From the NCBI GenBank assembly GCA_006384855.1, contig VCJN01003041.1, positions 62,001-126,000 of the forward strand: 64,000 nucleotides of DNA, in the 5' to 3' direction. The position numbers and the translations under genes were made by a program. The notes beneath the pieces are model-generated. The model searched no databases. It was given only the letters and a program-made list of their open reading frames with translations, and was not told where the DNA came from. Position 1 is the stretch's first letter, and each line of letters starts with the position of its first letter. Shown piece by piece: positions 17,001 through 50,924 of the stretch. The stretch comes from Tetraselmis striata. Lineage: Eukaryota > Chlorophyta > Chlorodendrophyceae > Chlorodendrales > Chlorodendraceae.

Positions 17001-19025
17001 CCATCGGTGCGCCTCGCTCCTGCCATTAGTGACTACTCTCGTCCACACAACTTTCACCTGTGCACTGCTAGCTTGCGGATTCTGCCAGACACTCACCACG
17101 CCACCTACTGCTCTGGCCATGCTTGCCAGGCCCCCGCTTTGGAGGCGCTATTGATGACGCTGCTCGCTACTTCCGGGAGGCAGTTTCCCAAGTATGATGG
17201 CCAGCCCCCCCTGCAGCATCTCACAAGCATGTGGCATATCCGAGCATGTCATCATCCAGCTCAGGCTTTGCCAGACAGATGTAGAATATTGGCAATTGAA
17301 TCCCCCAGGGCCTGGCCGCGGACGACTTTGTGGAGGGCATGAAGAAGAAGGGGCTGCGCGTCGCCGGCATCGGCCACCGCATCAAGAACAAGGACAACCG
17401 CGACAAGCGCGTAGAGCTGCTTCAAAAGTACGCCAGTGAGGTGTGTCTTGCTCAGTCCTCTCCCATTGGGTGTGTTTTGGTGCGTCTACGTGTTGAAGCA
17501 ACAACGCGACCCCCCTCGTGCTGGGAGTACTCTGGAAGCAATTGCCTCCCGGAAGCAGCCGCCACAAAAGTATAAGACAGCCCATAGTTGCTACAGGGAC
17601 ACTTTTCAGCGCATTGCTGATTGGCTTTTGGGGTAGGCCGACTCCCAACCAGCAGGCGCTGCTAGGTGCCTGCAGGCCTATTTGTGTGTGTAGGTCCAGG
17701 GGTACCGCACGCATATCTGGCTTTGTGTGGCTGAGAGATGGGACCGCAGCATGATGCCTTCCGGGTGTTTGCCATCGCTCATCGTCTTAAGCTGCGAGAA
17801 GTCGGGTAGCGCACTCTGGTTGTCGGGATGATATGAGAGGGTGGCAAGTATGATAAGCGAGCTGCTTCGCCTATTCCTCCAGTCGAGAATGGACATGATC
17901 TGTGTGTGGGTGTGTCTGTGTTGCGCAATGTTGGCCCCACAAGTGCGGGCTCGCCCAGACTGCACATGTTGCAACCCCGTCCTTTGGTGGGGGGGGGGGG
18001 GGGGGGGGGCGGGGGGATTGATGAAGAGTCAAAAAGTCCTGTCAAGCCCCGCTGCATGCCAAGTAGGGTTTTGGCTTTTGGGTTTGTCTTGAAGTGGTGT
18101 GGTGTCGACTGCAGAACTTTCCGAGCACACCCCACTTGGACTTTGCGGTCACTGTGGAGGAGTACACTCTGCAGAAGAGCGCCAACCTGGTCTGCGCCTG
18201 GCCACCATATGCTCGCTTTTGAACAGCGCACCGCTAAAAGCGCCGAGCTGCCTGCATGAGAGGTCTGATCATCCCCTGTCTGCCAGGCGCATCTGACTGG
18301 AAGCATGCATCGCCCTGCCAGGTTCTGAACGTTGACGGCTGCATCGGCGCCCTCTTCCTCGATCTTCTCTCCTCTTGCGGGCATTTCTCTCCTGTATGGC
18401 CACCGGCTACACCATTAACACCCTCCCTCCCATTTCACGGTTCCGGGTTGTTGTGGCTTTCTCTCCGTGACCGCACATGCAAATAACGCACCGCATCATG
18501 TGCTTCAAATATATCTTCAGCTGCGCGGCCGTTGCATAGCCTTTGCTCATGGCAGTGACACCACAACATATTGTTTCCAATCCAGGATGACATCAAGAGC
18601 ATCATCGACATTGGATACCTCAACGGCCTCTTCGTGCTTGCCCGCTCCATTGGCTTGATCGGTGCGCACGTAGCGCGCACCACTGAATTTGCAGCTATTT
18701 TGTTGGAGGGATTACTGCGTGCCTTTTACATCAGGGAAGGTTTGAATAAGCCAGGTGAATTCGGCTGCTTTGAGATTTTTGGTGGTGTTCGTAATTGGCG
18801 TGGATTCGCTGCACGCAGGACATTCGCTGGACCAGAAGCGGCTGAAGGAGCCGCTGTACAGGTATGGCCGTGTACCGTGCTCGCCAGCTATATGGGGCAA
18901 CTCTGGGCCTGTGCCGTAGATAAGTCCTCATGTTGCAACGATTGGCAACAGATTCCCATCTCTCATTCTGCGACTTCACGAATGTTTGCAGGCACCCATG
19001 GGAAGATGTGCTCTACACTACCTAA
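13811..19025 (+). CDS. ACLB: ATP-citrate lyase subunit B
   Basis: Eighteen exons were read by eye and join in phase: 13811-13916, 14339-14405, 14584-14731, 14837-14915, 15031-15103, 15205-15446, 15644-15721, 15830-15885, 16056-16110, 16332-16550, 16677-16738, 16888-17006, 17130-17182, 17309-17440, 18115-18189, 18322-18393, 18586-18661, 18819-18861, with a final exon 18992-19025 (TAA). The protein is about 600 residues, as in plants. It opens [20 protein letters not shown]. It has the CoA-ligase part ([28 protein letters not shown], and [21 protein letters not shown]), then the citrate-synthase-like lid ([48 protein letters not shown], and [20 protein letters not shown]). It ends [10 protein letters not shown]. 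With subunit A (not in this window) it cleaves citrate to acetyl-CoA and oxaloacetate in the cytosol. The split AB form is that of plants, green algae and fungi. Introns are mostly 90-430 bp; intron 14 is about 670 bp and holds a poly(dG) run. Confidence 0.93.
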
Positions 19026-23110: not shown

Positions 23111-23465
23111 GTATATGTATGAAACGCAACGACGCAACGATGCCACGACACGCAAACGTAACGATGTATGAAAAGGCACGTCTGTAATTACGCCACATGT
23201 ATGTATACGCAAAGTTGTATCGTAGCCTTCTATTTATTCGCACGTCGTAAGCGGGCGGGTGGCCATCGTGGCCATCGTAGTGAGCATTGTCAAAAATCGG
23301 CCAGCTCTTGTCTGCGTGGCGCCGCCGTTTCTCCTTGCTCATCAACATGGCACATGCAGACAACGTTCTTGGCGGGGTCGCGTCCGCGCGTGCGGCACGT
23401 GATGGTACTCCTGCGCCTGCGTCGCGTCGCTCGTCGGCATGTGTTGCTATGACCCGGGTCATTGG

Positions 23466-23612
23466 CTGCAAGCGGGAGGGAGCCAAAACGCGAGCAAAAA
23501 GGTAATGTATCACGCGCACCGTGTTTTGGCTCTGTTTTTGAGCCCTAATCCGAGCAAAGTGAGCCAAATCTCGTTATACCGAAAAGGACGAATTTAGGGT
23601 TTCGTACAGTTG
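23466..23612 (+). repeat. Left terminal inverted repeat of the first MULE
   Basis: Matches the reverse complement of 39,787-39,895 with a perfect 23 nt core starting at 23,482 and several ordered shorter blocks, separated by small indels. The transposase ATG lies about 130 bp inside the inner edge. Confidence 0.75.
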
Positions 23613-23740
23613 CATTAAGTACTGGGATCATGGCGCTGGCACGACCGCGGCTTCTAGATTGTGTCGTCAACGGTTTTCGCAACGGGAGGCATCACTCGCC
23701 ACACCCGTGCCGCGCCCCATAGGCCTCCTACCTTATAGCC

Positions 23741-26700
23741 ATGTCAAATTCGGCGTGGTCCAATGGCGAGCATATCGACGGCATGTTTCAGTACATGCAG
23801 GTCAATTCTGAGCGTGTGTGGTCGATGTTGCAGCGTCTGGAACCTGCGCTTGGTGCCGATACGGCACGGGGCTTGCTGACTAGATTTGTCGACCGCTCCT
23901 TGGCTGAGGTTCCGGTGCTTCCACGAACTGGTGCGACTCCAACACATGGCAGCGCTGGACAGGAGGCTAGCGTCGGGCCTAATGACCGGGAGTTCCCAGC
24001 ACCGGCTGAGGCTTCAAACATTCGAGGGGGGGTGCCCGCAGACCGTGAAGCCCTTGCGTCGCTGCCAGAGTTTCGGCCGGAAGCTACAACCCCAACCCGT
24101 ACCGGGACTCGCTTACCGCCTCGCACGCAGCCTTCTACCAGCGTCCCGGTCCAAGAACACCAACCTTCCAAGTCAGGAGGACATGATCATGAGTGGTTAA
24201 GGCCGGTTGTAGATGAAAGAGAGTGGGAGTCGTACAAGGCCTTGAAGACTGATATTCTCGACTTCGGCGAAAAGTGGCGCTACCTCCACCGATCTAGCGC
24301 CGCGAAGGTAAGGCTCGCGGGTGCATTTATTTCCTCAAACGGCCTTTATGCTAGCCTAAATAACGGGCGTGTATGGCGTGCTTCCTGCGCCGTGGAAGGT
24401 CTACGCTTGCCGGAGTCATGCCGGATGCGCAGCGAGACTACGAGCCGTTCAAGGGTCATCTGGAAAGTGGGGCATTGAGTACAACAACGTGTCGCACACG
24501 GCGGCGAAGCTAGGCGATGACGACGGCGTGCCACAGGCTCTACGCCCCAAGTTGAAGCCCCTCATCACTGACTGCGGCATGACCCCGAAGAAGGCGTTGA
24601 ACCGCTTCACGTCGCAGGAGCTACGGGACGCGGGAGTCCCCGAAGGGGGGCGACCCGAATTGCTTAAAAAGGTCCAGCGATGGAAGAGGGCTCTCGCGGT
24701 GAAAGGGAAGGGAGTACGTGCGCTGTCTTCCTTTGCCGACTTGCAAGAGTGGGTGGATTCCAATCTCCTGCCCGCCCCTCAGAATATGGATGACGACGTC
24801 GAGGTTGATAAGTTGTTCGTGCTTCGGAATGGCGTACAAGCTGAAGCCGAGGCAGTGGCGTTCTCCACAATCGAGCTACTGAGGACGGTTCAGTACGTTC
24901 AACTCAGTGGCCTGCCGCTACATTTCATGACCGATGGCACGCACAAGGTGTCCTTCAATCGGTGGGTCTTGCTAACGGTGGGAACAACAACAATCAGACC
25001 CCCGACTAATAGCCACGTCGATCTCGTCAACTCCTTCATACCAATCGCGTTTTGCTTCGCGAGAACGGAGAGCGAAGGCGCTTTCTGCACGTTATTCAAG
25101 GCTGTGGTAGACTCCTGCGAGGAGTTGTTTGGCCAACGACCGTCACCGCATGCCGTGGTTTCGGACAGGGGGGTCGGCGTCCGCGCTGCCATTCCGGCTG
25201 TTTTTCCAAGTGCGAAGGTATGTCACACAATACTTGAAGGACTACGCTCGATCGCGGTTTGTTTTAAATGCATGCCGAAGACAACACCATGCGGCGGGGC
25301 GCAACAATCTAGGGCTTCCCGTATACAAGTCACCTCCCGCCTACTTTGTTTTTTAATGCCACGGGGCTTACAACGGTGTCCGCGTCGCAGAGAGTGAGTT
25401 GTTGGGTGCATTTGCACCGCAAGGTCGACAGCCCAAGTTTCCGCATCAAGGAGGGCGGGCGGCCAGTCCCCATTCTACGCAATCGCACCGCCAATGTCGG
25501 ATTCCTGCGGAGCGTCGTCAACGTTATACATTTGTGTCGGACGACGGAGCAGGCAGTCGCCGTGTCTGCAGTCCTCATGGCCGAGTTGCGGCGAAAAGGC
25601 GAGAGCCGGGCTGCAGCTTGGCTGGAGGGCCAGTATCTCGACGACAACCTGGACTGGAACATATCCACTGGTGTTGGGGGAGTTCCGGCCTCTACAAATC
25701 CTCAAGAGAGCTGGCACAAGTCCATGAAGGCCGAACTAGACATGGGGCCACGTCGTCGAGCCACCGACACCCTATTGGAAACAACTTTCCAGGAGATGTG
25801 CAAGCTGCAAGGCCGGCAGTTCCGGGAGGATAACGAGCCCTTCAACCATGGCTTGACAAAGGAGTTTTCAACGCTTGTGCACGAGGCCATGGACTTTGCG
25901 ACGCCGGCGCGTACTGGCTTAACCGCGTACAAGTGGAAGAATGGCGACCTTTACGTAAATGCCGACCCTCTCGTTGAGGACAACGTCACCGACCGACGCG
26001 TCACCGATTATGAGAGAAGTCTATGCGGTGACCTGCCTCCGTCTTGCACCACCATCGGAGGCGTCAGACGGACATGCGGGTCTCTAAACCGCGTTCGGGA
26101 CCTACCAGGTCTCGGGATATCCTGCGACTGCAAGAGTTTCATGTGCCATCGCCAGTGCGGACATCTGTACCTGTGGCGAGCATTAACAGACGACGTTGTT
26201 TTCAGGCGGTTCAGCGGCGGGGTGCGCCCAATGGGGGGCGAGCGCCCCCCCTTCCGACCTGCGCATGCAACTCCGGCCCTGATCGTCCAACCTTTGGAGG
26301 GACAAGCGCCCCGGCGTCGGGGGCGCGGCGGCAATCGACGACGGCCAGACGATACTTCTGACCGTCTGAACACTTCAACTCCCGCGACACGCGGATCAGC
26401 GCAGCCTCCCTCTGACATCCGTCGGAAGCGGACGACCACCGCAAAACGAGTTTTAGACGCATCTCCGGTGCCTCGCGAGACAAAGACGCCAGTTGCCGCG
26501 ACTCGCAACCTCGCGAGGGTTGCGTCCGGTTCCGCTTTGGATCCCGAGACTGCCCTTTCTTCGCCGCAAGTAATTGCCCCAGCCCTGCGTACTAGGGCAC
26601 CGGATATCGCCTCGGCTTTAGCCGAACCGGTGGTCTGCCATCCCAAGCGGCCCTCGTCTACGCCACAACCTGCCCAAGTCCCCGCTACGCCTGAAAGGCC

Positions 26701-27100
26701 GGGCGCGCCGGCTGCAGTCGAAACTGCGAAACGAGATCCCGGTCGAGCCGCGAAAGCCAGCCGTTTGCGGGCCTCAACGAGTGGCAAAGCGCCTTGGGCG
26801 AGAGGCCTTCTCCGGGAGCCTCCTGCTAAACCCGTCGGGTTCCGGGCACGCAGAGCTCTACGACAGGCTGAAGAGGCCCTGGCGGAGGCGCGGAGGTTTC
26901 GAAGGAATCTGATGGCTCGTGAACGCTACAAGCGGAAAAAATTAGCTGCAAGGGAAGTTGGCGATCAGCAGAAGGCGCCTAAAAGGCGCAAACGTGTTTC
27001 AACGCAAGCACCGGATCCCGCGAAATCCATCAGCGGAATGTCGTGCTCTTCCGGCTCCCTCGAGGATCCTTGGTGGTGTCAGTCGAAGGGGAAGAAGTAG
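23741..27100 (+). CDS. MULE transposase (DDE with SWIM zinc finger), apparently intact
   Basis: Three exons join in phase 0: 23741-24307, 24399-25217 and 25391-27100 (TAG), giving about 1,031 residues with no stop. Residues 1-189 are mostly disordered, then end in EWESYKALKTDILDFGEKW and an intron after AAK. Exon 2 opens with a Cys/His finger (VYACRSHAGC ... VSHTAA, ~190-230) of the kind found in Mutator transposases. The catalytic core follows: D368 in HFMTDGTHKV, D445 in HAVVSDRGVGV and a candidate E568 in STNPQESWHKSM. The SWIM finger CDCKSFMCHRQCGHLYLW lies at ~707-725. The last 300 residues are Pro/Ala/Arg-rich and end in a basic helix (ERYKRKKLAAREV). It acts in the nucleus, cutting at the terminal repeats. 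The acceptor of intron 1 is pyrimidine-poor but keeps phase. Confidence 0.85.
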
Positions 27101-27109
27101 TAATTTGCG

Positions 27110-29050
27110 GGTGTATAGGGATTGCAGTTTCGCATGTATAGTTCGCCTATAATGTTGCGCTGCACCGCAGATTGTTGCCTTCGGTCAGGGTGAACTGCTT
27201 ACAGCGCTGTAACACTCTCCTCCCTCGTGCATAGGCGCTCGATGACAAGACACATGTATCTAGCCACATCCCCTTGTACTTCATGTTCGCGACGACGAGC
27301 CCTAGATTGCTGCGCTGCACCGCAGATTGTTGCCTGCGGCCCGCGGTACCTGCCTACACGACTGCAACACTTCCCTTGTCTCAGTGCTAGGTGCAAGCGT
27401 GGTATTATACAAGCGCATAGGCTCGACGGCACAGCAGTGATTGCTGTCCGGGTACTCGCCTGACGACTTCACCTCGCGTTATGCAGAACACTCTAGATTG
27501 TTGCGCACCGCCGTAGATTGTTGCGTTCCGCATGTACTATTACGGTCAATACACGGCTGCTTACATCCCCGGACTATGTGGCGTACGGGTATCATCCTTG
27601 CGTAAGAGCTCGAGGACAAGACACATGTATCCGGCCACATCCCCTTGTACTTCATGTTCGCGACGACGAGCCCTAGATTGCTGCGCTGCACCGCAGATTG
27701 TTGCCTGCGGCCCGCGGTACCTGCCTACACGACTGCAACACTTCCCTTGTCTCAGTGCTAGGTGCAAACGTGGTATTATACAAGCGCATAGGCTCGACGG
27801 CACAGCAGTGATTGCTGTCCGGGTACTCGCCTGACGACTTCACCTCGCGTTATGCGGAACACCCTAGATTGTTGCGCACCGTCGCAGATTGTTGCGTCCC
27901 GCATGTACTATTACGGTCAATACACGGCTGCTTACATCCCCGGACTATGTGGCGTACGGGAATCATCCTTGCGTAAGAGCTAGAGGACAAGACACATGTA
28001 TCTAGCCACAACCCCTTGTACTTCATGCTCGCGACGACGAGCCCTAGATTGCAGCGCTGCACCGCAGATTGTTGCCCGCAGCCCGCGGTACCTGCCTACA
28101 CGACTGCAACACTTCCATTGTCTCAGTGCTAGGTGCAAACGTGGTATTATACAAGCGCATAGGCTCGACGTCACAGCAGTGATTGCTGTCCGGGTACTCG
28201 CCTGACGACTTCACCTCGCGTTATGCGGAACACCCTAGATTGTTGCGCACCGTCACAGATTGTTGCGTCCCGCATGTACTATTACGGTCAATACACGGCT
28301 GCTTACATCCCCGGACTATGTGGCGTACGGGTATTATCCTTGCGTAAGAGCTCGAGGACAAGACACATGTATCCGGCCACATCCCCTTGTACTTCATGTT
28401 CGCGACGACGAGCCCTAGATTGCAGCGCTGCACCGCAGATTGTTGCCTGCGGCCCGCGGTACCTGCCTACACGACTGCAACACTTCCATTGTCTCAGTGC
28501 TAGGTGCAAACGTGGTATTATACAAGCGCATAGGCTCGACGGCACAGCACTGATTGCTGTCCGGGTACTCGCCTGACGACTTCACCTCGCGTTATGCGGA
28601 ACACCCTAGATTGTTGCGCACCGTCACAGATTGTTGCGTCCCGCATGTACTATTACGGTCAATACACGGCTGCTTACATCCCCGGACTATGTGGCGTACG
28701 GGAATCATCCTTGCGTAAGAGCTAGAGGACAAGACACATGTATCTAGCCACATCCCCTTGTACTTCATGTTCGCGACGACGAGCCCTAGATTGCAGCGCT
28801 GCACCGCAGATTGTTGCCCGCAGCCCGCGGTACCTGCCTACACGACTGCAACACTTCCATTGTCTCAGTGCTAGGTGCAAACGTGGTATTATACAAGCGC
28901 ATAGGCTCGACGTCACAGCAGTGATTGCTGTCCGGGTACTCGCCTGACGACTTCACCTCGCGTTATGCGGAACACCCTAGATTGTTGCGCACCGTCGCAG
29001 ATTGTTGCGTCCCGCATGTACTATTACGGTCAATACACGGCTGCTTACAT
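27110..29050 (+). repeat. Satellite array, ~371 bp units with paired AGATTGYTGC motif
   Basis: Just over five head-to-tail units follow the transposase stop codon directly. Equivalent points recur at 27,479, 27,850, 28,221, 28,592 and 28,965, a period of 371 bp, with very few differences between units. Each unit contains two pairs of the form AGATTGTTGC-spacer-CGCAGATTGTTGC, where the spacer is about 8-12 bp (for example GCTGCACCGC). Frames across the array repeat the same meaningless peptide, so it is not coding. Near identity of the units points to recent amplification or gene conversion. Confidence 0.92.
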
Positions 29051-29088
29051 GGTACTGTCAAGTCGCAGAATCAATTACATGCTACATG

Positions 29089-31990
29089 CTATCGTGGAAC
29101 ACCTTCAATTATTAGTGGTACGAGGGCGGAGGCCTCCGATCCGCATATATGCCGGTCTACTTCCTCGCCGACCTGACAAATCACAATCCATAGCGCGCGC
29201 TGTTGTGTCAGGGGGTTTCGGGCTTGAGCAGACATGACAACGCACAGTCTGCGAGATTCAGCGAGACTTCGAAAGAAAGCAGTTCTTGGAGGGGGTCCCT
29301 GCGTGAGGTACGTCACTGGTGCCTGCACGCAAGTCATTGTTGCTGCCGACTTCGCCGCCAAAGGAATGAAGAGGTCGAGAAGACTGAACCAAGGCGACGT
29401 CACTATGACATATGGTTCGCCGATTGTTCTTCGAGCTCTTGTGTGTGTATCCGGGCATAGAGCATCAGCAACAAAGTCGTTGCCCGCGTAGGCTACCACG
29501 TCGCTAAGCAATACCCTCGTAGCTTGCAGCGCCGACCTCGTGCCGCCCTTGCCGGCCCACGGATCCCACACAAAACTCGAAGTCAGGCTTGGAACGGCCT
29601 GGATTAGAGGCAAATACTCCCAGGGCCATGTCGGTATGCAGGGAGGTGTCGGTTTCGCCTGTAAATGCGCATACTTTTTGAAAGCCCGGGAGATGTGGCC
29701 ATCCGCCCAATTGCCTGGCATGCCCCAGCACAACCGGAGCATAAACTGATGGCGTGTAGCACCCAACCTGGGGACTCCTTTTCCCGTATCCCTGCGAGGC
29801 CATATTGAAATGAGACAAGGACTGAGGCTAAACACATTGTTTACATAGGTTGCGGGAGGCGGGGTGGGAGGGGGGGGTGGGGGGGGGACCGCGCGAACTA
29901 ACTCGGTAAATGCTAAGTCCAGGGGGAGTTTCACCTCGCGTTGCCCGATTGTGACCCCACGCGGCTGTGAGGGAATATGAAGGATGCTTGCTTCAATTGG
30001 TCAGTCTCGCCAGCGCTCGCATGGAGTCTGAGCGCGAAGTCGATGCTCGGCCTCAGCGGAGACGGCACGCGGTCGTGAACCAAGACATTCGCCCATTGCG
30101 GGGACACCTGCATTGCGCGGCGATGCTGCTCGACCTGTTGGTCGCAAATGTCGTTGTAGGGCGTAGGGAACAGGTGCCTGTTGAACGTCATGTCCAATGG
30201 CGTGAGTTGCATACCAGGCAGACTTGCTCCGTCAGCGGGCGCCAGGACAACTTTCAGGTAGAAATGCCCGTCGACGGCCTGCCCCGCCCCCTGGACACAG
30301 TCACGGCACCTCGTCACGGTTGCTGGATGAATGCCCCCGACCGCCGCGTCTGCAATCACTCGCTCGCCTGGAAGCGCGACTACAAGACCCATCGTGGAGT
30401 ATGAAGCGCGGTCGGAGCTGCCACCACATCGGTTAAGGTGTTCCTCGTCAAGCAGCCCCCAAGGCACGAGCTCCTTCCGGGTAATGACGCGATCTTGGCA
30501 TAGGTTCCTGCCGCCGCCGGCCATTAGCATATAAAGAGACGGATAGAAGGCTGTAAAGTATGCCTCGGAGCCCAATGGAAAAGTTGATGCGCGTTCCGCC
30601 TGTACGTAAGGTCAATTGAATGGGGGGGGGGGGGGGGGGGGTTAGTTATACGAACTTTCATATATGCCGAGAAGGGCACAACTTACAAGCACATATAGGC
30701 GAAGAGGGGCCGCACGAGTCGTGGACAAGCCCACTTGACGGCGTCCCTTATGGGTATGTCAGGCGCGTTTCGCACGAGCATCAGAGGGTTGCAGCACGTG
30801 AAGTGGACGAGGAGCAAGACTGTTCCGACACCGTTGCTGATAGTCTCCATGCCTGTCGGCGCTCCTGCCGGAGAATACACAAGAGTCCGCTCGACAGGCA
30901 GCATCTTGGCTCGGAACGCAAGTTTTCGCCCCGCTTCGTCTACGACCTCCGTGACGAAGCCTTGCAAGTCCCTGTATAGCTCCGCGCCTCCTGACGAGTT
31001 GCGTAGCCAGTCCCCGACTGCAGCCCGCCTTGAGCCCGGCACCAAGCACCGTGGGTCTGTGGGACCTGCAGATTTGGCCCATTACTACATTCAGAATTAG
31101 GGCATAACTTACCCTAGTAAGGGTTGCACAATCTGGGCAGCCGTGAATGGTGCCACGCGCTTACCGTCGCAGTCTAGCAACATCTCTTGGCGCATGCCGG
31201 TGGCGGGCTGAAACGGACAAGTGTCCGTATTGCCTGTCAGCTCGGAGCGCCTGCGCATGAGCTCCTCTCCCAGTCTGCGACATGTAGTGCGGTCACTACC
31301 CACGTAAAATGAAGCGTGGCCTCTCGCGAGGAAGCGCTTGCTTCCTATCGCTTCGTGGCGGAGGGGGTCGTCAAGCGGAGGCACTCGACTCGCCACGAAA
31401 CCATCTTGCGGCTTGTCCGTGGCAGCGGGGAATGGCAAGGGCCGCACTTCAGGTGAAGGAATTAAAGGCGGCTTATCGGGGGCTTGAGCCGGCTTGGGCA
31501 AGGCGCGTGGAGCACTTCCAGAAGTCGTTGATTTCTCAAGGGCTACCGGATCCGTGCAAGTCCCCACGTCGACGCGTGCACTGGCTGCACGTGAGGTTCC
31601 CTTACTGGGCGGCGACCCTACGCGTTTCGGCGCTACATCCTTTTGTGCGGTAGCTGGCAAGTCTGACCGGTGTGGGCCAGAACGAGACCGCTTCGTCACC
31701 CACTTCAATGTACGTTCAGGTTTGACAACCACCGCTGGCGCGGTAGGCGTAGAGTTATCGACAGTTACGACCGCCGGCGGCTCGGCAGTCGTTACCGTAT
31801 CGACCTTTGCGACACGCTGCCGACGCAGAGGATAGACTCGGGGAGTAGTGGCGGTGGTGTCAGTGACTCGAGGAGGCCAAGGCGAGATGTTGTCTGTGCC
31901 AGCGCTTCCTGCCTTGAACTTCTTCACGGGTGCCTTACTGCGCTTTCCAGCAGCCTCCGATAGCCGTTTTGAACGGTACCTCTCGGCCAT
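29089..31990 (-). CDS. Cargo gene 1: Dam-like DNA methyltransferase candidate
   Basis: Minus-strand exons at about 31990-31162 (or -31111), 31063-30683, ~30600-29933 and 29795-29089 give roughly 850 residues. The last junction (GCGAG|gtgaaa to gcag|GGATACG) is clear and in phase; the second is not resolved. The N-terminal ~280 residues are basic, Pro/Ser/Thr-rich and disordered (opening MAERYRSKRLSEAAGKRS). The C-terminal exon has FVWDPWAGKGGTRSA, an SAM-binding motif I of the DPxxGxG type. This is followed by LLSDVV, then AYAGNDFVADAL, and then VIVTSPWFSLLDLFIPLA, in the place of the (N/D/S)PP(Y/F) catalytic motif IV. After that come PVTYLTQG, R..FF and RRLCVVMS. The order I then IV fits N6-adenine/N4-cytosine enzymes. 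SPWF instead of SPPF is unusual, so activity is uncertain. It lies inside the MULE, opposite to the transposase. Confidence 0.5.
29860..29890. repeat. G-rich tract in an intron of cargo gene 1
   Basis: Interrupted G runs near 29,863-29,888 fall inside the short intron (29,796-29,932) of the methyltransferase candidate. A cleaner run of 19-20 G (30,621-30,640) lies in the preceding intron. Confidence 0.7.
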
Positions 31991-32099
31991 TTTCCATTCC
32001 GACTCGGGCTTTGTCGCTGTCTGATAGACGTGATACGTACGGTACGAGGAAGCGGAACGTGTCAGTATGCCTGACCTTCCGTCGGGGCTGCACGGCTCT

Positions 32100-33760
32100 C
32101 TGCAGCGAGGTCTAGGTTACTGCAAAGTGCCGCAGATTGCTACCTTTCCGCACCCCCTATCGCAGGCCCTAGATTGTTGCACCGCAGATTGCTACCTACC
32201 CGCCGTCACTGCATAGATTGTTGTACAGTCTGTCCTCGGTATCACAGCGCATGAAAGATCAAATATTACGAACACACTTGGCGATGGGAACATGGTCCTA
32301 GCAGGTAATACACTGCCTGCTTTAGATATCTGATAACGACAAGGCACAGATTGCTGCGAGGTGCCGCAGATTGTTGTCTCCGGGGACACCGTGTCGCCCT
32401 ACATGAACATACGCGTTAAGTATCTGCATTTAAATAGCATGCAAGTCTCAGTGTCAATGTGTAATACTCTTGACGACAATACATATCGAAAGGCTTCAGT
32501 AGAAGGTATGTCCAGCGGAACGCCCTAGATTGTTGCCCTGCTCCGCAGATTGCTGCCTACCCTCCGAAACTGCCTAGATTGTTGTAAAACCTATCCTCCT
32601 CCGATTCATGGGACATGGAAGATGAAATGTTTCGAACATAGTAGATGATGGGAACATGTTCCTAGCAGCTATACTACACTGACTGCTATAGATCTGATTT
32701 CGACAAGGCCAAGATTGCTTCGAGGTGCCGCAGATTGTTCTCTCTGTGAACACCGTATGGCCATACATAAATACACGCGTTAAGTGTCTGCATTGAAATG
32801 GCATGCAAGTTTTAGTATACTATGAAATTTAGGACGCTTGACGATATAACATATGGAAAGGCTTTGCTGGCGTGTTTGTCCAGCGACAGGCCGTAGATTG
32901 TTGCGCAGCACTGCGGATTGCTAACTAGCTACCTGCCGTAACTGTCAAGATTGTCAGAAAAACCTGTCCTCCTCCGATTCATAGGTCATGAAAGATCGAA
33001 CATTCTTAATACATATGAAAAGGCTTCACTACCAGGTGTGCCCAGCGGCATGCCCTAGATTGTTGCGCTGCTCCGCAGATTACAACCTACCCGCCGTTAC
33101 TGCCTAGATTGTTGTACAACCCGTCCTCCTCCGATTCATAGGGCGTGAAAGACCAACTATCCGAAAACACCAGGTGATGGGAACATGTTTATCCAGTCAG
33201 CTACTACACTGGCAGCTATAGATGTGATTACGACAAGGCACAGATTGCTGCCAGGTGACGCAGATGGTTGTCTCCCCGTACACCGTATCGCCATACATGG
33301 ATACGACCCGTTATTTGTGTACATTTGTATGGCATTCTCAGTGTGAATGTGCAGACTCTTGACGATATTACATATCAAAAGGCTTAACTAGCAGGTGTGC
33401 CCAACGCTACGCCCGTAGAATGTTGCGCTGCTCCGCAGATTGCTACCTACCCTCCGAAACTGCCTAGATTGTTGTAAAACCTGTCCTCCTCCGATTCATA
33501 GGACATGAAAGATGAAATGTTTCGAACATACTAGGTGATCGGAACATGCTCCTAGCAGCTATACTGCACTGACTGCTTTAGATATTTTTACGGCAAGGCA
33601 TAGATTGCTGCCAGGTGCCGCAGATTGTTGTCTCCGGGAACACAGTATCGCCATACATGGATACGAGCCGCTAAGTATCTGCATTTATATGGCTGCAAGT
33701 CTGCGAATGAACTTTGGTAGTCCCTAGGTTGTGGCGCCGCACCGCGCCGATTGCATGTAT
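32100..33760 (+). repeat. Satellite block, ~360 bp divergent units with AGATTGYTGC pairs
   Basis: Units of about 360 bp start with CCTAGATTGTTGC or a close variant near 32,167, 32,525, 32,889 and 33,413, with a partial unit near 33,053. Each also carries GCCTAGATTGTTGTA.AACC, CCTCCTCCGATTCAT and GGGAACATG. The paired motif is the same as in the 27-29 kb array, but the rest of the unit is a different, more diverged subfamily. This block separates cargo genes 1 and 2. Confidence 0.85.
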
Positions 33761-33775
33761 ATGCCCATGTTGCCG

Positions 33776-36164
33776 CTATTTATTTTTATTATGACACGGT
33801 TTACTGGTACTTATCCAAACACCTGACACGAATCGGCATGTATGAGCGGGTACGGGTCGGAGAGAGTCCACCTTTGCACCTTCCGCGGCAGCTTGCTCGG
33901 AGATTTTCCTAGCGGCGTCGGCTGCGGCCTTCCTCCCCGCCTGTATTTGAGGCGAGTTAAGCCCGTCAGATACATAAATAAAAAGCAGAATACATGCAGG
34001 GCGGCTGGTTGTGCGCCTTACTAGTTTGGCTGCCGACGTTGTGCCGACGACGGGCTTGCGATCGACGTCGAGGCGGGAATTGCGTGCCTCGGGAAGGTTT
34101 GGTTTGCCTTCCTGCAAATCAGAAGATTGCAAGTGCGATCAGTAGAAACTTGTAGACCATGTTGTAGCAAGCAATCAAGTCAGGCCCTTTCCGTCTATAG
34201 CCTGACTGGAGCACTTCTGCTGTCAGTAAGTCGACACTTACCGCTTTCGGCGCTTCGGTGGATGCCACCACACCTTTGCTTGCAGTTTGTCGCGTCTCCG
34301 GAGCCTGAAATCCGACAGTGGTGAGCGAAACTTCAGTTTGCGACATAAAATGAGCCCAGTACATACTTGCGGATGCATCGAACCTTGGACCCATACCTCG
34401 TGCGACTTAGCGGGGGAGGTTGTCCCGGGTACGGATGCCTTGTGTGTAGCAGCTACCGCAGTGGCACGCTGGCCGGCCAGGGGAAGCACAGCCTGCTCCG
34501 CGGTAATACCAGGAAGTCGTGTTGATGATTAAATATAAAAGAAGCAGTGAGCCGCTGCAAATGAAGGCAATGAAATATTACCTTGACATCCGACCGGGGC
34601 TCGGTGGCGATCGCGAGGCCCGCCGGCGCGAACGGTGGGATACTCGGCTGCGACGACAAAACATGAGTTTAGCGGCGAGCCTAAGCAAGTCGCGGGGTGG
34701 GGGCTGGAGAGGGGGCGGGGGGTCACCGGGAACGTTTCGACTCCAAAGTCGATATCACCCGTCATATCCACAACCGGTGCAGTAAGAGCTCTGGAGTCCG
34801 GGCCAGTAAGCGGCCGGCTGGAATCTGCGCGGCACTTTTGGCAGCGCCACGACCGAGTGTTCATAAGGAGTTTCCGGTCCCACTGGCCAGAACTCGGTGT
34901 GCCGGAGACGAAATCGCGAACAGGCCGGATCGGATAGCCGATGTGCTTCACATAGTGCTTGCCGCCATCGCAGAAGATGAGAACGACAGAGTCCACCGCC
35001 GCTTTCCAAGCAGTTTCATCCCACGCCTTGGCGGTTGCTGGTGCATACTTGAGGGCGGAGATGGCGGCTTCGCCAGCAGAGCGTTTAGGCACCACCCACA
35101 TGTGACGGAATTGCTGCTTCGCGTCCTTGTCGACGCGCGGCGACCTCAATGGCACCTTGACTAGGTCCAGGGCGACAGCGATCCTCTGCGCAGCCCAGAA
35201 CGAGAAGCCGAATGGCGGGAAGATTCCCTCCGGCAAGCCGTTGATGAGGCCCTTGAACCATTCAGATTTAGGCGGTCGGTGCTTGCCGAGAATGGGCCCC
35301 GAGCCCATGCCTCCCAAGCTTGTAACGAAAAAGAACGGTGCCCAGGTCTCACGCATGGCATCCACCTCGCCCTCTGTCACGAAGATTTCCGGGGGATATG
35401 CCAGGCTGTGCGCCGCAACGGTCCAGAAGAGGTGGACGATGTGCGTAGCAAAGGCCTTGACGATGAGGCCGCAATGCAACCAGCAAGTGCTGCGGCCTCC
35501 TTGATGAGAGGTGATGCCCCGGAGCAACTTCGGCAAGACAGCGCTGTCAGACCGCGTAACCTCCCATAGAGCGTTGGCGTGGCTTGGGTAGTCTCCCGAC
35601 TCGACTAAAGGAAGAGTGCCACGCGCGATCATCTTTAGGCTGTCGTACAAGAAGACGGGCGCCACAATCTTGCGGTTTATGGTTTGCCATATCGCAGTGG
35701 CATAGTGGCCGGCGCCCGTGTCGGCTCCGACAGGGTTACAAAGAGTACCATACGGGCAGAAGAGGTGGAACCAAACGACCAAAGTGCCAGGAGGCGGCTC
35801 CGGCCGGACAGATACCTTCTCGTACTTGGCGACGAGGTCCTTCGTGCCGTGAAGACTACTATCGAAAGAGCAGATACACAGTCGGAACTCGACGCCAGGC
35901 GGCGAGGGGCACAAGGTAAGAAACGCGTCCGCGAAGCAATATGACCATTTGGAGTTCATCCACATTGTCGGGCCGCGCGTCAAGAGGTGGTCTAGTTCCG
36001 CCCACTGGAGGGAATACTCACGGGCCATGTCCTCTGTTGCACGTGGCCACTTCGCGAACCACTTCCGGAAGGAGTCATGGTTGGGGTCCCACGAGGGCGG
36101 AATAACGGGGTGGCTTCGAGGCCGGCGAGCGAGGCGCAGTTGCCTCCAGTCCTCGGAGTTCTAC
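33776..36164 (-). CDS. Cargo gene 2: Ulp1-like cysteine protease candidate
   Basis: A large minus-strand exon runs from an acceptor at about 36,164 to about 34,680, then several short exons follow (near 34,660-34,590, 34,490-34,400, 34,310-34,215, 34,100-34,020 and 33,955-33,870). The 5' exon is not found. In the main exon, GAGHYATAIWQTINRKI is followed by VFLYDSLKMI, and later HQGGRSTCWLHCGLIVKAF. This gives a His - Asp - Gln - Cys order, with Gln six residues before Cys as in C48/Ulp1 proteases that process SUMO-type proteins. The Asp is in the expected YDSL context. The 3' exons encode low-complexity, Lys/Ala-rich sequence. Ulp-like genes are known passengers of plant MULEs (the Kaonashi type) and of KDZ transposons, which supports the reading. 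The overall protein is otherwise unfamiliar. Confidence 0.45.
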
Positions 36165-36239
36165 GGCACAAAACCGTTATAAGTACAAGGAACACATGCT
36201 CGTGGCCCCACCCGTTGTTTGCGGTGCCTGACCTAGTCC

Positions 36240-37760
36240 ACAGTGGCTCTACGGAAAAGGCGTAGATTGCTGTTTACTGTCGGCATACTATACTCCACAT
36301 TATGGCAGCCTAGCCAGGTATATGCATCAGTTTGGCATGTTTGTCTCAGTGTGTATGTGCATACTCCTGATGTTAATACATCTCAAAAGGCTTCACTAGC
36401 TAGTGTGTCCAACGGTACGCCCCAGATTGTTGCGCCGCTCCGCAGATAGGTACCTACCCGCCGTAACTGCCTAGATTGTTGTAAAACCTGTTCTCCTCCG
36501 ATCCATAGGGCATAACAGACCAAATATTCCAAATACTCTTGTGATAGGAACATGTTCCTGGCAGGTACTACACTGGCTGCTTTAGATGTGATTACGGCAA
36601 GGCATGGATTGCTGCGAGGGGCCGCAGATTGTTGTCTCTGGGAACACCGTATCGCCATACATGGATACGACCCGTTATTTACCTGCATTTGTATGGCATG
36701 CAATTATCAGTGTGAATGTGCACATTATTGACGATAATACATATCAAAAGGTTGCACTACCTTGTGTGTCCAGCAGTAGGCCCTAGATTGCTGCGCTGCT
36801 CCGCAGATTGCTACCTACCCGCCGTTACTGCCTAGATTGTTGTACAACCCGTCCTCCTCCTATTCATAGGGCGTGAAAGACCAACTACCGAAAACACCAG
36901 GTGATGGGAACATGTTCCTAGGAGGTACTACACTGGCTGCTTTACATGTGATTACGGCAAAGCATAGATTGCTGCGAGGTGCCGCAGATTGTTGTCTCCA
37001 GGCACACCGTATCGCCCTACATGGATACAAGCCGTTATGTGCATTTAAATGGCATGCAAGTCTCTGTATGAATGTGCATACGCGTGACGATCTTACATAT
37101 GGAAAGGCTTTGCTGGCGTGTTTGTTTGTAGCGGCAGGCCGTAGATTGTTGCGCAGCACTGCCGAGTGCTAACTACCTACCGAACGAAACTGTCAAGATT
37201 GTTAGAAAACCTGTCCTCCTCCGATTCATAGCTCATGAGAGATCAAGTCTTCCCGATACACTCGGCGATACAAACATGTTACTAGCGGGTACTACACTGG
37301 TTGCTTCATTTATGATTGCGACAAGGCATAGATTGCTGCGAGGTGCCGCAGAAGGTGCTAGACATATTAACCTTACCCAGCGTTAAGGCACGCCCTAGAT
37401 TGTTGCGCCCCGCCGCAGATTGTTGCCTTATTCATATATTAACTCCATATCAGATATTACACTTCCCGGTACTGCGGCTTAGAGGTATTATGCGGGCGCA
37501 TAGGCTTGAAGACAAGGCACAGGTAGATAGCCGCTCCTCTAGATTGCTGCGCTGCACCGCAGATTGTTGCTTAATTTCTACTGCCTACAACGTTGAAACA
37601 CTGTCATCGTTCGGATAATAGTTGCGTACATGACACAAGCGCATAGGCTTGGCCGTCAAGACAGCGGTAGGTAGCCACACCCGAGGTACGACGTACTTTG
37701 TGATAGCGTGCCGTAGGTTGCTGCGGTGCACTTCAAATTGTTGCCTTCCGCAGGCGGGAA
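36240..37760 (+). repeat. Satellite block, ~360 bp units with AGATTGYTGC pairs
   Basis: Further units of the 32-33.7 kb subfamily start near 36,423, 36,783 and 37,139, with looser motif pairs at about 37,325, 37,395, 37,540 and 37,715. It separates cargo genes 2 and 3. Divergence grows towards 37.7 kb. Confidence 0.85.
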
Positions 37761-37809
37761 CTGCCTAAAAAAGAGCCCCTTATACTTTGTAGACTTGTAC
37801 AAGTCGTAT

Positions 37810-39639
37810 TCATGCGGCACGGAAGCACCATGCATGCGCATAGGCACGACGACAAAACACAGATTGTTGGGCCCTTGCACGTAAATGGGCAGTTCTAAAT
37901 TTATACTGCGGCAAGCATAGTGCGGGTGCACCCACCGTATCGGAAACCAAGTTCACACCGTCCTCGCGTTCACAGGAGGCGGGCTCCTCTCCTGCGTCGT
38001 AGAAGACCTCGTCCTGGGCGTCGTCGTCGGCGAGGCCGTCGGAGGCTCGTGCGGCGGATGGTGGCTCGTGGGGTACCGCCTCCGCCGCAAGTTTTTTCGG
38101 CGGCCTACTGCGTGCCGGTTGCGTCCTGTCCCCTTGTTTGCGCAGAGCTCCCTCGGTGGTCCCAGTCCCATCATCGGGAGAGTCGGCCGGCACGGGTGTC
38201 TCCGGGACGACGTCGTGGCGGTGCTCGGACAGGTGAGGTCCCGATATGGTAGCCAGCAACCTGTCCTTCTCCTACGAGGGTGGGCTAGAAGCAGTGAGAC
38301 GTGTGATACATAAAGGCGATGCATTCATGTTCACACGAGGCGGTGCGACACGCGAAATGCAAGCGTGGACAGGCCTACCTCACGCAGCTCGTCCAGACGA
38401 GTAGGCACTTCCTCAAGACGACATTGGACGGCACAAAGCATTCCCTGCTGCTCGGGAAGCCCCACACTCTCCTCGAAGTGGGCCAGTTTGCGCACAGGCG
38501 GGCGATCTCGCTTCTTGAAATCTTGGGAATGGTTGGTGAAGAGCTGCCCCGCTTGTCGAGCGAGGGCGGCCACCTGGGCTCTGCGACGTTCAATCTCGGC
38601 TTCGAGGAGAACACGCGACTCCTCACAGGAAGCAATCTCGTTGTCAACAGCATCAAGTCTGTCTTGCAAGTGCAAAAGCGACTCTGGCGCCCCCTCCTCC
38701 AAGATTGTCGGCAGCCTTGACGGCCCAGCGTCGGGAAACCCGGCGCCACCCTCGTCACCCGCAGCAGCTACATCAGCAGTGGAAGTAGCAGCAGCGCGTG
38801 CTTGCTGTAGGGCCTCATCCTGCAGTTGCGCCTGGGTCATGGGAGCCTTGCCCTGTGATATATTGAACTGTAAGTACTTACGCAATCTGCTGTATCGCAG
38901 ATTGTTACTCCTCGGGCAGATTGTTGCTCAGAGCGCCTAGTGCGTACCTCGCGGCGCCTTGGTTTCGCCTCACTGACCTCGCCTTTTTCTCCTTCGTCCG
39001 AGGGGGGAGACTGCGTCGAGGAGGGAATGGGTGAATTCAATACCTTTAGTGAGATGTGGGGTTGGGGTTCGGCGGTTGGGGTGGGGGTGGGGGGGGGGGG
39101 GGGGGAGTGTGGGGGCGAACCATGTCCAAAGCCCTGGCGATATCCTGTGTTGCCGGCAGTAAATCTTGGGTTTGTTGCATGGAATCGCCGTCAGGTATGC
39201 GTGGAACCCCTGATCTCGTAATTGGGCGCTGCGCTGCCGCGGTGCGTTCCGTAGACGCCGGTGGCGAGGCTTGCACGACTGTCGGCGGAACACTGGCCGG
39301 ATGCTGGCCGCTATCAGATATATCCGCATCAGACTCCTCGTCAAACCCCAGGCGGGGCCAATACAAAGAGGGCGGCTTCCCCCGCACCCGCCGCGAAGAC
39401 CGCCGCGCCTGCGAAGGTGCTGGCTGGGACTGAGCTACCGGCATAGGAGCCGTGCCCGGGCCTTCCACCTCCGGGGTGGGCCTCCGCCGCCGCCGCCGAG
39501 CGTCTGGAGGGTCCTCCAGCGGGCCGTCCGCTGGCTTAACCCCCCAAGCGACATTGCGCATGGACCGTCGCAGGTACGGCTCCGTCATATGGGCGTCTAG
39601 TGGCCCGCGCTTCACTCCGACGGGTTGTACGGCTAGCAA
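37810..39639 (-). CDS. Cargo gene 3: disordered and coiled-coil protein, unknown function
   Basis: Minus-strand exons near 39,639-39,100, 39,045-38,950, 38,857-38,380 and 38,245-37,935. A clear intron runs from CGCGAG|gtacgc (about 38,949) to tatcacag|GGCAAGG (about 38,857). The first exon is Pro/Arg/Ser-rich (YLRRSMRNVAWGVKPADGP). The third encodes a coiled coil: LLHLQDRLDAVDNEIASCEE then SRVLLEAEIERRRAQVAALA. The last is acidic (GLADDDAQDEVFYDAGEEPA). No enzyme motif is seen. It lies at the far end of the MULE from the transposase, on the opposite strand. Its second intron contains the AGATTGTTGC-type satellite motif. Confidence 0.45.
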
Positions 39640-39786
39640 GGGTGACCACAGCCCGAGAGGCGTGACAAGGAGTGTGGGTGGATGCGAGGGGGAGGTGGTT
39701 CTAGTTCGTTACGGCAGCCGTCGCGCATATGTTCGAGCCTCACACTCCCGCACAGGTGGCGGCGAAAACAGTATATTAATGCAGAA

Positions 39787-39895
39787 CAGTAAACCCTAAA
39801 CGGACATCGTGATTTGGCTCGAAAAACAGCAGCAAAACTAGGACCTCGTGGTACAGTACCTTTTTGCTCGCGTTTTGGCCTTTTCTGGGCTGCAA
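39787..39895 (-). repeat. Right terminal inverted repeat of the first MULE
   Basis: Reverse complement of the left TIR. It carries CCTTTTTGCTCGCGTTTTGG exactly and the other blocks in inverted order. The outward boundary is fuzzy beyond about 39,900. Confidence 0.75.
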
Positions 39896-40017
39896 GCGTC
39901 CTCGCCGCGGCTGATAGCCTACCCCGGGGCGGGGGTCCCTTTGGTCCCTGGCTGCTAAGTGATTTCGTGGTTCCCTTGGCTCCTTCTTGGTTCTTGGCTC
40001 CCTGTCCTCCGGCTCGA

Positions 40018-41785: not shown

Positions 41786-44405
41786 GTGTGACAATTCTTC
41801 GAGCGTACTAGTACGTACTGATTAGTAGTACGATATACTACGACCTAGTACGAGTACTATATGGACGAATACTAGTACGATGTGCACCTAGGACTGCGAT
41901 GAGAGCATATTGTGCGATATAATGCTGCTATATGGTAAGCGTTGCGGCAACCTTGTTGGCAATATTTGTATTCTAATATAAAACACTGAAGCGTCTCCTC
42001 TTTGTACCACCACTGCGCACTAACTCTATCTTTGTGTCTCCAAGGTAGAGTCGGTCTCATGTGGCGCGGAATGGGAGAGTGCGTCAAGGTCCGAGAAAAC
42101 ACACTAGGCGCGAGTAGGGATAAGGTGGAGAGTTTACACGGCCGAGTCAAAAACGCGAGACATGCTAGCAGCGGTACGGGTACTCGGTCGTCGGAACGAA
42201 GGGCATTGGCAAAGTAGCAAGCCGCAAACAGACAAGACATCGGCGCGATGAGCACCGGGGTTGGAACACACCCTGGCAAGCGCTGCGAAGGCTACATACA
42301 AAGGCGTGCGGAAAGGGTCACCTGGCGGGGATGACAGGTACATGTGACAGAGTGACATCGCGAGTACGATGCGTCCGGCGTTTCTTAGCCTCGCGCCCAC
42401 CCGTTCGCCCGCCGTGTACAACATGTGTGCCCCCGTTATTTTTTCCGAAGACAGGGTTGCGTCACAAGGTTAGACATTGTCTCAGCTAAAAAGTTGCCAA
42501 TGAGAGTAACCCGTGGACAACGTGTTGTGTCCTGTCATGTATGTGAAGTGTCCGTGGAGCTCAACTCTCGGGTGATTGTGTGTTTTCGAGTTGTCCGGGA
42601 CTTGAAAGTTGCCGACGTAATTGTGGAAATGCCGGCGTCACAATCGATGGAAATCACATTACATCATGCTACTCGTGCGCTACAGTTTTATGATGGCACT
42701 AAACTCGCTAACTCCGACGAGAGTACGAGTGTATACTCCGTGTACGCTGCTATGTTGTACATATTGCCAATTTTGGCAAGCTCATGAAGAAGGCACGCCG
42801 AGCAGGCGAACGTACAAAGGTTGCCGACTTCTTCTTTGCGACTTTACGCAAAGCCGAAGATGGCGAGTTCTTTGTTGACATGCGTCACATATACGACGGA
42901 TAGGGCGTCCAAAGCATCATCACTCAGCTATGTGACGACTTCGCCGAGAAGGTGGAATGATTGCTTTCTGAGAATCTTTATTTGGTTAATGCCCCTACTG
43001 AGTTTCCGCCGTCCCGAGGCGAACTTGATCACATGGTATAACTTACGGGAAATTTCCCCGTACATCGTACTGAACGGTTGTCTCCGGCTGAACGCGCTAA
43101 TTTGTACGTCAGTGTTCTGAGTAGGTTGAAAAGGATCAAATTCGTCCGAGTACTGCGCCGTATACGCGGCACCCGTGTTGCTCGCTCGTAAGGTCGGCGG
43201 TAGCCTTTGATTGTGCGTTGATTACAGAGCTTTGAACGCGATAACTCTGAACGATCGTTGCCCGCTACCCGGCATCGACGACCTGCTTCCCGAGCTGTCT
43301 TGGGCTAAGGTTCCATCTCACCTGGACCTCATGCAATGTTGCCACCATAATAGAGTTGCTGAATATGGCATTGGTAAGACTGCTTTTCGTGGGCCTGATG
43401 GCTTCTACAAATGGACTGTCATGTCCTTCGGCATGTCCAATGCGTCAGTTTCTACGTTTCAGCGGCAGATGGACGGGGTACTCAGTTCTTTCCTACGGAA
43501 GCTCGTCGTGGTCTACCTAGACGACAGATGTGTCCACATCTCTGACAAGAGCGAGCACCTTGAAAACCCGAGGCAAGTATTTCCTTTGTTGTCCCGACAC
43601 AAATTGAAATTGCGTGTTCGGAAGTGTCTCTTTGGACATACATAGCCTACTTCCGTTGGTTACGCAGTTTCCAACGGACAATTGAAGCCTGGTGCAGCTA
43701 AAATTAATGCAGTAAAAGTGCGGCCTTTACCGACTACGCAGAACGAGCTGACAAGTTTCGTTGATTTCTTCTCGTAGCGACTACTACCAGAGGTTCGTAC
43801 ACCACTTCTCCGATTGTAGTGCGGTTCTTACGGGCATGCTGTCGAATAACAAACCCGGTACTTTAAAGTGGGCTACGGAATATCGTAATGCTTTTGAGCA
43901 TCTAAATTCTAAAAATCCGGATATCCCCGCTACTGTCCCGACTCTAGCCGATATGGGCAGCGAAGCGATGTTCATTATGGGAGCCGGTGCGTCTAACGTT
44001 GGCCTTAGTGGTGTCATGCTGCAAGACCATGGGCTGGCTAGCAGCTTGTCGAATACTTTGCACGCAAATGGAATGCTTCAAAGCGAAACTACTACTATGC
44101 TTACAAGCTCGAAGCTCTCACGGCGGCAGCCTCGACTAAACACTTTCGGTTGTACATTCAGGGGGCGAAATATGTTACACTGGTTATTGGAGCATGGGTT
44201 TCTATCCATGGACCTCGAGGTAAATGTTTTGATCTCCACTGTTGTCGAGAATTGATGTCTTGCGCGGAAGGCGGGGGAATGTAGTGTGACAATTGCGAGT
44301 ACGATAAATACTACGAGTTAGTACGAGTAGTGGCACGATGTGTACCTGAGACTACGAGCATCTGTACCATATAATGCTGCCATGTAGCAAGAATTGCTCT
44401 TTTGT
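41786..44405 (+). mobile_element. Ty3/gypsy LTR retrotransposon fossil
   Basis: LTR-like ends both begin TGTGACAATT (41,786 and 44,285) and continue with similar AGTACGA-rich sequence; the 3' LTR looks shortened. Between them, in order on the plus strand, are remains of an aspartic protease region (about 42.43-42.78 kb), a reverse transcriptase (about 43.2-43.65 kb, with the CVDYRALN and YLDD motifs) and an RNase H-like part (about 43.76-44.2 kb). The order and motifs are those of Ty3/gypsy. The copy is broken in several places, and its LTRs have diverged visibly, so it is old. Confidence 0.85.
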
Positions 44406-45000
44406 GCCAAATATCGCCTCGATTGGCCCGAACCGTCGAGGCAGCCTGCAAACAATGCATGGGCGCTGCCACCGCCGCACACCGCGCGCGCCGAGGCTAC
44501 TCGTATATCCAACTCGCTAAAGGTATTTGCTAAATGTAAATTACCAAGTTCCCGCCAGCCTCGCGCTAAGGGGCGCGCTCAGAGGGTGCGAGGCGCTCTT
44601 CGCGAGCGCTACTAAGAGCGTACGAGAAGGTCGCGCGTTTTTGTATTGATCCACAGTATTGTCGGAGCACGAGAGCAAAGCATAGCCAAGTTTCAACTTC
44701 CTGCCTAAGCCCTACAGACAGGTCCCTTTGGGGCCTCTAGGGCTTTTGTAGGACGACGGAAGTTCGGCAATAAGAACCAGATTAGAGTAGGAATAGAACA
44801 TATAGAAATGGGTTGATGATTTTGCTTTTCTTGACAAATAACTGCTGCTGCTTGAGGTACGCAATCTTCGTTGTACTAAAGCTGCGACTCGATTTCTGAA
44901 AGCATTAAGTACATTGTTTGAGTTTGTATTGCCAATATGTTAAGGGAAAACGCACGTAATGCACAGCCATTTTTAATTATAGATAACGATAAAGGAACAC
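44405..45000. other. Spacer between the gypsy fossil and the second MULE
   Basis: Contains a GC-rich stretch (about 44,560-44,640) with local self-complementarity around GGCGCTCTTCGCGAGCGCTAC and an AT-richer tail. No gene is seen. Confidence 0.35.
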
Positions 45001-45003
45001 GCG

Positions 45004-45098
45004 CCGATGGGAAAAGCGCAACATTATAGCGTAAACGGTAGAGGCCACTATACTTCACTTTTGACTCACTGAAAACGGGACAATTCACTAGCTCACGC
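45004..45098 (+). repeat. Terminal inverted repeat, left end of second MULE
   Basis: Reverse complement of 56,424-56,512, with roughly 85-90% identity by eye over about 90 bp. Confidence 0.75.
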
Positions 45099-50800: not shown

Positions 50801-50924
50801 CTGCCAATGTCGATAGCGTGGCGGGGGAGGGGGGGGGGGGCTGCTCCTCATCATCTTTCTCAATTGCTGCGCGCCACTCACTGCCGTCAGGAGGGGGCGA
50901 GATGTGACAGTTGTCGACGCCTTG

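Follow-up and report, generated by a model that had tools for sequence, protein, structure and literature searches.

A 16.4-kb Mutator-like element of Tetraselmis striata with its own transposase, three minus-strand genes and arrays of a short bipartite word

The maize element MuDR (mudrA/mudrB) is about 5 kb long, and its transposase gene and accessory gene are read inward from opposite terminal inverted repeats (TIRs). Here we describe a Mutator-like element (MULE) of 16.4 kb, element 1, and a decayed relative, element 2, in a 64,000-nt stretch of Tetraselmis striata DNA (GenBank assembly GCA_006384855.1, contig VCJN01003041.1, positions 62,001 to 126,000 of the forward strand; this whole stretch is called the window and its first letter is position 1). 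Like MuDR, element 1 has a transposase gene and an accessory gene that point inward from opposite TIRs; we know of no motif arrays in MuDR like those of element 1.

VANDAL elements (VANDAL21/Hiun and VANDAL6, with the transposase VANA and the anti-silencing protein VANC) are Mutator-like and carry several genes, as element 1 does. According to excerpts of PMC5735166 and PMC10398659, VANC21 binds a 9-base word and removes silencing, and copies of this word are densely arrayed in one orientation in tandem repeats, introns and upstream regions; VANC6 targets carry motifs other than those of VANC21 (PMC5735166, excerpt). Element 1 resembles these elements in that its tandem repeats, introns and intergenic DNA hold arrays of a short word in one orientation, with words that differ by family (as excerpted from PMC5735166 and PMC10398659). 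VANDALs have no TIRs or short degenerate ones, with TIRs in some members of the clade (available portion of PMC6446971), whereas elements 1 and 2 have clear TIRs. MULEs carrying Ulp1 (Kaonashi/KIU of Arabidopsis and those of melon, rice and grapevine; PMC13317346, excerpt) share with element 1 the combination of a MULE and an extra gene, but the searches given below did not support Ulp1 similarity for the protease candidate of element 1. Sola1-1_Ec32 of Ectocarpus is a giant DNA transposon of 21.5 kb with an accessory gene for ParB and a DNA methyltransferase that is predicted to methylate DNA, and this gene is opposite in strand to the transposase, as in element 1 (PMC12477816, excerpt); it belongs to another transposase superfamily, and no ParB or methyltransferase domain was detected in element 1. 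The Ectocarpus transposon makes a methylating accessory protein plausible and is not evidence for one in element 1. In Pack-MULEs, too, the TIRs of a MULE enclose foreign sequence; the examples of Jiang et al. (2004) are at most 7 kb long, most of them 1-2 kb (PMC6431247, partial text), and their transposase is supplied in trans, whereas element 1 carries its own. A MULE with both a methyltransferase gene and motif arrays was not found in searches of open-licence papers, an absence of little weight.

Element 1 spans positions 23475-39887 (16,413 bp). Its left TIR (23482-23544, plus strand) and right TIR (39816-39879, minus strand), about 64 bp each, are 83% identical (blastn E 6e-10). Among 3000 pairs of 200-bp stretches drawn at random outside the satellites, none attained the local score of 69 that the TIRs have, and the best scored 55. 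Just outside the element lie the two copies of an exact 11-bp direct repeat, GGCTGCAAGCG, at 23464-23474 and 39888-39898, which are 7 and 8 bp from the TIRs and form the target-site duplication (TSD). As a chance level for this direct repeat, a common word of at least 10 occurred in 15 of 19,981 random 25 x 25 flank pairs. The TSD range of MULEs is 8-11 bp in a table of PMC6446971 (partial text), and the exact TSDs of element 1 (11 bp) and element 2 (10 bp) fall within it. Since an exact 11-bp repeat flanks the TIRs, the 16.4-kb unit was probably inserted as one piece. An earlier note on this DNA, written from the letters alone, had placed a cargo-carrying Mutator-like unit bracketed by long TIRs at 23466-39900 and had named flanking duplications of 8-11 bp as a check. 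The unit and its TIRs stand, its borders move to 23475-39887 plus the direct repeats, and the 11-bp repeat now supplies evidence for a single unit where the note had only proposed one.

The transposase gene of element 1 (23741-27100, plus strand) has exons at 23741-24307, 24399-25217 and 25391-27100, separated by two GT-AG introns of 91 and 173 bp. The spliced frame encodes 1031 amino acids (aa) with 0 internal stops. A Pfam search with its first 742 residues matched the MULE family (PF10551; E 2.3e-7) at 31.6 bits against a cutoff of 27.6; without splicing the score was 27.9 bits. By eye, the D, D and E residues can be read in contexts typical of MULEs (MTDGTHK, SDRG and NPQESWH), as can a C-x2-H motif and a SWIM-like CDC...C.H pattern. 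No zinc-finger model matched the transposase in the profile search. The full-length transposase that the earlier note had described is thus confirmed as open after splicing and apparently complete. With TIRs, a TSD of MULE length and a MULE-type transposase, we concluded that the 16.4 kb of element 1 form one Mutator-like element, bounded by TIRs and a TSD and probably autonomous.

The genes of element 1 are interleaved with three satellite arrays on the plus strand, as had been noticed earlier. Array 1 (27146-29050) has a 371-bp unit made of two halves of about 185 bp with a motif pair in each, array 2 (32162-33711) has a unit of about 364 bp, and array 3 (36323-37767) has a unit of about 361 bp plus single motif pairs. 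Common to the satellites is a bipartite word, two copies of AGATTGYTGC 20 bp apart. Exact matches to AGATTG[CT]TGC number 37 in element 1 and 5 in element 2, against means of 0.16 and 0.06 in shuffles, and there are 0 in the other 36,095 bp of the window. When one mismatch is allowed, element 1 has 52 sites (1.1 expected), 50 of them on the plus strand; with two mismatches there are 73 on the plus strand, and 23 of the 72 successive spacings are exactly 20 bp. In array 1 the motif pairs recur every 180 or 191 bp. Fifty of the 52 one-mismatch sites lie outside the modelled exons, which take up 9,021 of the 16,413 bp in models made partly by eye. These non-exon sites include one in a transposase intron (intron 2; motif copy at 25267-25325, minus strand) and one in a possible intron of the coiled-coil-candidate gene (38899-38927). 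Such dense packing of a short motif in one orientation, in tandem repeats outside the coding sequence, is the pattern seen in VANDALs, as a likeness in working and not in kinship. Among the nine main open reading frames (ORFs), eight had no Pfam match at cutoff and the ninth is the transposase, and no VANC homologue was found, the presence of a DUF1985 model in the library being unchecked; the resemblance to VANDALs is therefore one of working and not of membership.

A self-alignment of the window returned the same TIRs and satellites and uncovered a second TIR- and TSD-bounded unit, which was delimited by this comparison and by tblastn of the element 1 frames against the remaining window. Element 2 (45010-56500, 11,491 bp) lies 5.1 kb from element 1. 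Its TIRs (45019-45093, plus strand, and 56416-56490, minus strand; 75 bp) are 94.7% identical, and an exact 10-bp direct repeat, CGCGCCGATG, stands 9 and 10 bp outside them (45000-45009 and 56501-56510). Relics of transposase exons 1 and 2 occur at 54893-55838 on the minus strand (tblastn E 0.001-0.15, 33-37% identity). The pieces at 55838-55713 (E 0.002) and 55021-54893 (E 0.08) are weak singly but in the right order, and the former stops at the point that corresponds to the end of exon 1 in element 1, with a GT coming next, as read by eye. A third relic, of the SWIM-like region (46880-47383, minus strand), matches at E 7e-9. The catalytic core of the transposase had no tblastn match in element 2, which has therefore presumably moved in trans. 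A satellite with the AGATTGYTGC word and a 190-bp unit occupies 52662-53977 (minus strand). On the plus strand at 51287-52159, the methyltransferase candidate of element 1 has a relic in two tandem copies, which correspond to the C-terminal part of the candidate (E 1.6e-14 and 9e-12, ~40% amino-acid identity).

Read in reverse, element 2 has its transposase (55838-54893), satellite (53977-52662) and convergent methyltransferase candidate (52159-51287) in the order found in element 1. That two elements have this order in common speaks against insertions nested by chance. When their satellites were compared by blastn, the top alignment, which did not use the word, had 58% identity over 644 columns (E 8e-9); the TIRs of the two elements gave no mutual blastn match and are unlike by eye. 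Mismatches between the two elements were counted by codon position in six high-scoring segment pairs (HSPs). Positions 1, 2 and 3 gave 48, 32 and 57 mismatches in 91 codons, 25, 24 and 32 in 59, and 47, 36 and 51 in 76 for the methyltransferase candidate (the 76-codon HSP is another frame of the first relic copy), and 19, 19 and 32 in 42, 24, 17 and 28 in 42, and 75, 72 and 98 in 152 for the transposase. Position 3 is the highest in six of six HSPs by raw counts, with a modest excess over position 1 in the candidate gene; such an excess is as expected under past protein constraint. As judged from the sequence, element 2 is a decayed, diverged relative of element 1, and the layout they share is limited to the transposase, a satellite and part of one gene and does not extend to the rest of the cargo. 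At least one minus-strand gene and the motif arrays are probably standing parts of the element lineage. We consider the element 1 unit and the two-element layout to be very probably real.

The three minus-strand genes of element 1, described in the earlier note as a Dam-like methyltransferase candidate, a Ulp1-like protease candidate and a coiled-coil protein, hold up as ORFs; the two enzyme names found no support in profile, PDB or alignment searches and go back to motifs read by eye. The methyltransferase-candidate gene (29089-31990) is spread over several ORFs that can be joined openly under 48 splice combinations, none of them proven, and the part conserved in element 2 lies within 29092-29784. 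The protease-candidate gene (34529-36160) is a frame of 543 codons from stop to stop (499 aa from the first ATG), compared with a longest stop-to-stop ORF of 360 in 200 order-2 shuffles of element 1. The coiled-coil-candidate gene (37770-39639) has two ORFs (39046-39639 and 38331-38885; 197 and 184 aa) and a possible exon below 38271, its intron and downstream exon being by-eye readings at located splice-site words. The methyltransferase and protease candidates had 0 matches in Pfam and NCBIfam and none better than E 0.17 in PHROG and PDB, and in phages tblastn of the candidate proteins returned no E value below 9. Neither similarity to a Dam-like DNA methyltransferase nor similarity to Ulp1 or peptidase C48 was seen by profile or structure. 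In a weak test, the hhalign score of the protease candidate against a two-sequence profile of yeast Ulp1 and SENP1 was equalled or exceeded by 21 of 100 shuffled versions of the candidate. Single-sequence AlphaFold2 models reached a predicted local distance difference test (pLDDT) score of 41 for the protease candidate, which is not usable, and 32 for the methyltransferase candidate. By eye, the protease candidate shows GHY...LYDS...Q(x5)C, which can be read as a His-Asp-Gln-Cys order. The methyltransferase candidate shows DPWAGKGG, read as S-adenosylmethionine (SAM) motif I, and SPWF, read as catalytic motif IV; SPWF persists in each of the two relic copies in element 2, and the motif I region was not found there. 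Because its gene recurs in element 2 with an excess of third-position mismatches, the methyltransferase candidate is the better case for a working part of the element lineage.

The best overall explanation, which we hold tentatively, is that element 1 is a probably autonomous MULE with arrays and a gene borne by its lineage, and that an accessory protein encoded by the element would bind the bipartite AGATTGYTGC word. The MULE transposase would move the element by cut and paste, as its family suggests. A word spacing of ~175-191 bp would put one site pair on each nucleosome, and the bound protein may keep the non-coding DNA of the element open or unsilenced, as VANC does for VANDAL elements; anti-silencing through the arrays is in our view possible but rather doubtful. 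Of the accessory genes, that of the methyltransferase candidate is the one seen in both elements, and for this reason it would be our first choice as writer or binder. A narrower version, in which a DNA-binding or DNA-methylating element protein reads an element-specific bipartite word, with one pair to each nucleosome repeat, and holds the element open, seems unlikely. It would represent a VANDAL-type strategy that evolved independently and was joined to a DNA methyltransferase, to which we likewise give little credence. Each family might then have its own word, AGATTGYTGC in element 1 with CGCATCTC added in element 2, an extension that is equally speculative. CGCATCTC was selected as the commonest 8-mer of element 2, where it occurs 20 times (15 and 5 by strand; 0.5 expected) between 48120 and 55371, in 12 distinct contexts after merging of tandem duplicates, some of them within the relic gene. 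One copy is found in element 1 and two in the rest of the window. The commonest 8-mer in 100 shuffles reached at most 5 copies, versus 13 in the same non-array stretches.

Part of the evidence weighs against this overall explanation. In an ungapped comparison of seven chosen unit types, agreement was 91% per 10-mer, a value inflated because the anchors were all picked for carrying AGATTGYTGC, versus 61% between the 10-mers and ~20-30% in most flanks; the mean leaves out four of 11 anchors (H, I, J and K), K being compared apart. A gapped alignment of the units reveals further, weaker conserved blocks, one of them near GCGCATAGGCTTGACGACAAG. The site in the transposase intron has the word on the opposite strand, and the second satellite of element 2 (46046-49655, plus strand, also at 55251-55646; 184-190-bp units in gapped blocks) is entirely without it. 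Tandem repeats spread by themselves, so the copy number of an array is in itself no sign of function. None of the accessory genes has a recognisable domain. The methyltransferase-candidate relics are broken, with one stop per main HSP and a frame change, and the element 2 transposase is split and incomplete, two of its three pieces being weak (E 0.002 and 0.08). By tblastn against element 2, the protease candidate reached only E 3.1, the coiled-coil candidate a doubtful E 0.039 (a possible third exon E 1.1 at best), and the ORFs upstream in the methyltransferase-candidate gene nothing better than E 4.3. Given these weak matches, recurrence is shown for just one portion of the three extra genes, the C-terminal region of the methyltransferase candidate.

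These observations lend some room to a passive origin, in which slippage expands the satellites of elements that are large and seldom recombine, with useless captured host sequence as cargo, as in Pack-MULEs. The cargo has no family match, element 2 has satellites of other kinds (184-190 bp, 30 bp and 247 bp), and its matching pieces are fragmentary, all of which would fit. On the other hand, two diverged elements agree in the order and orientation of a gene part and a satellite, the word is retained although most of the unit has diverged, and element 1 has its long open frames intact; we regard a purely passive origin as somewhat unlikely. The arrays might instead be internal binding sites of the transposase, that is, transposition enhancers or sites of subterminal type, and not targets of an anti-silencing protein. 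The word is kept in both elements despite their different TIRs, and the two have, or once had, related transposase genes, as such sites would predict. However, no copy with at most one mismatch lies inside either TIR (a two-mismatch copy at 23656 falls in the gap that separates the left TIR from the transposase start), and the arrays occupy intergenic and intronic positions well away from the ends; we judge transposase sites to be unlikely. That element 1 is a composite, a small MULE with other elements or genes inserted and moved whole by chance, is very improbable: its large size and the lack of clear protease and coiled-coil candidates in element 2 would allow later additions of cargo, but the exact 11-bp TSD flanks the whole unit, so that the composite itself would have had to move, element 2 repeats the order of transposase, satellite and one gene, and among the 25 inverted repeats listed the outer pair is the one of TIR type that flanks the gene set, no dedicated search for inner insertions having been made.

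If the arrays are targets of an element protein, as in the accessory-protein explanation that we favour, sequence-specific anti-silencing would be a strategy that DNA transposons can adopt repeatedly, beyond the Arabidopsis VANDALs, and the compact word may offer a handle on it. With its own transposase, extra genes and arrays, element 1 is several times the usual MULE size, and element 2 suggests a plan and not the accident of one locus. The candidate methyltransferase would also tie element 1 to giant algal transposons with methyltransferase accessory genes (PMC12477816, excerpt).

Relatives were sought in the viral_contigs and genome_contigs collections with transposase exon 3, the methyltransferase candidate and the protease candidate as queries, the coiled-coil candidate being left out. 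Peptide patterns matched 3, 0, 1, 21 (viral) and 30 (genome) stretches, 0 of which were confirmed, and the AGATTGYTGC pattern had 0 matches in the two collections. Rfam gave 0 matches at gathering scores.

Element 2 also holds a 247-bp tandem duplication, a GC-rich 30-bp minisatellite of nine copies at 52360-52630, to which an inverted stretch at 10579-10723 is related, and an imperfect palindrome of about 70 bp (49694-49763; 76% self-complementary) that is perhaps a small separate insertion. Ten ORFs outside element 1, picked from several hundred stop-to-stop ORFs, were searched against Pfam and gave one strong match (major facilitator superfamily (MFS) transporter, E 1.5e-7) and one at chance level. 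Between the two elements, at 43211-44252, are ORFs of which the first resembles a Gypsy-type reverse transcriptase by eye (VDYRALN...YLDD) and the second has no Pfam match. A transporter-like gene (MFS or nodulin-like) at 5563-6666 narrowly misses the Pfam cutoffs. An ATP-citrate lyase gene, which together with spliceosomal introns points to eukaryotic DNA, has exons at 15153-17436, with a PDB match for 15153-15497 and a later exon recognized by eye.

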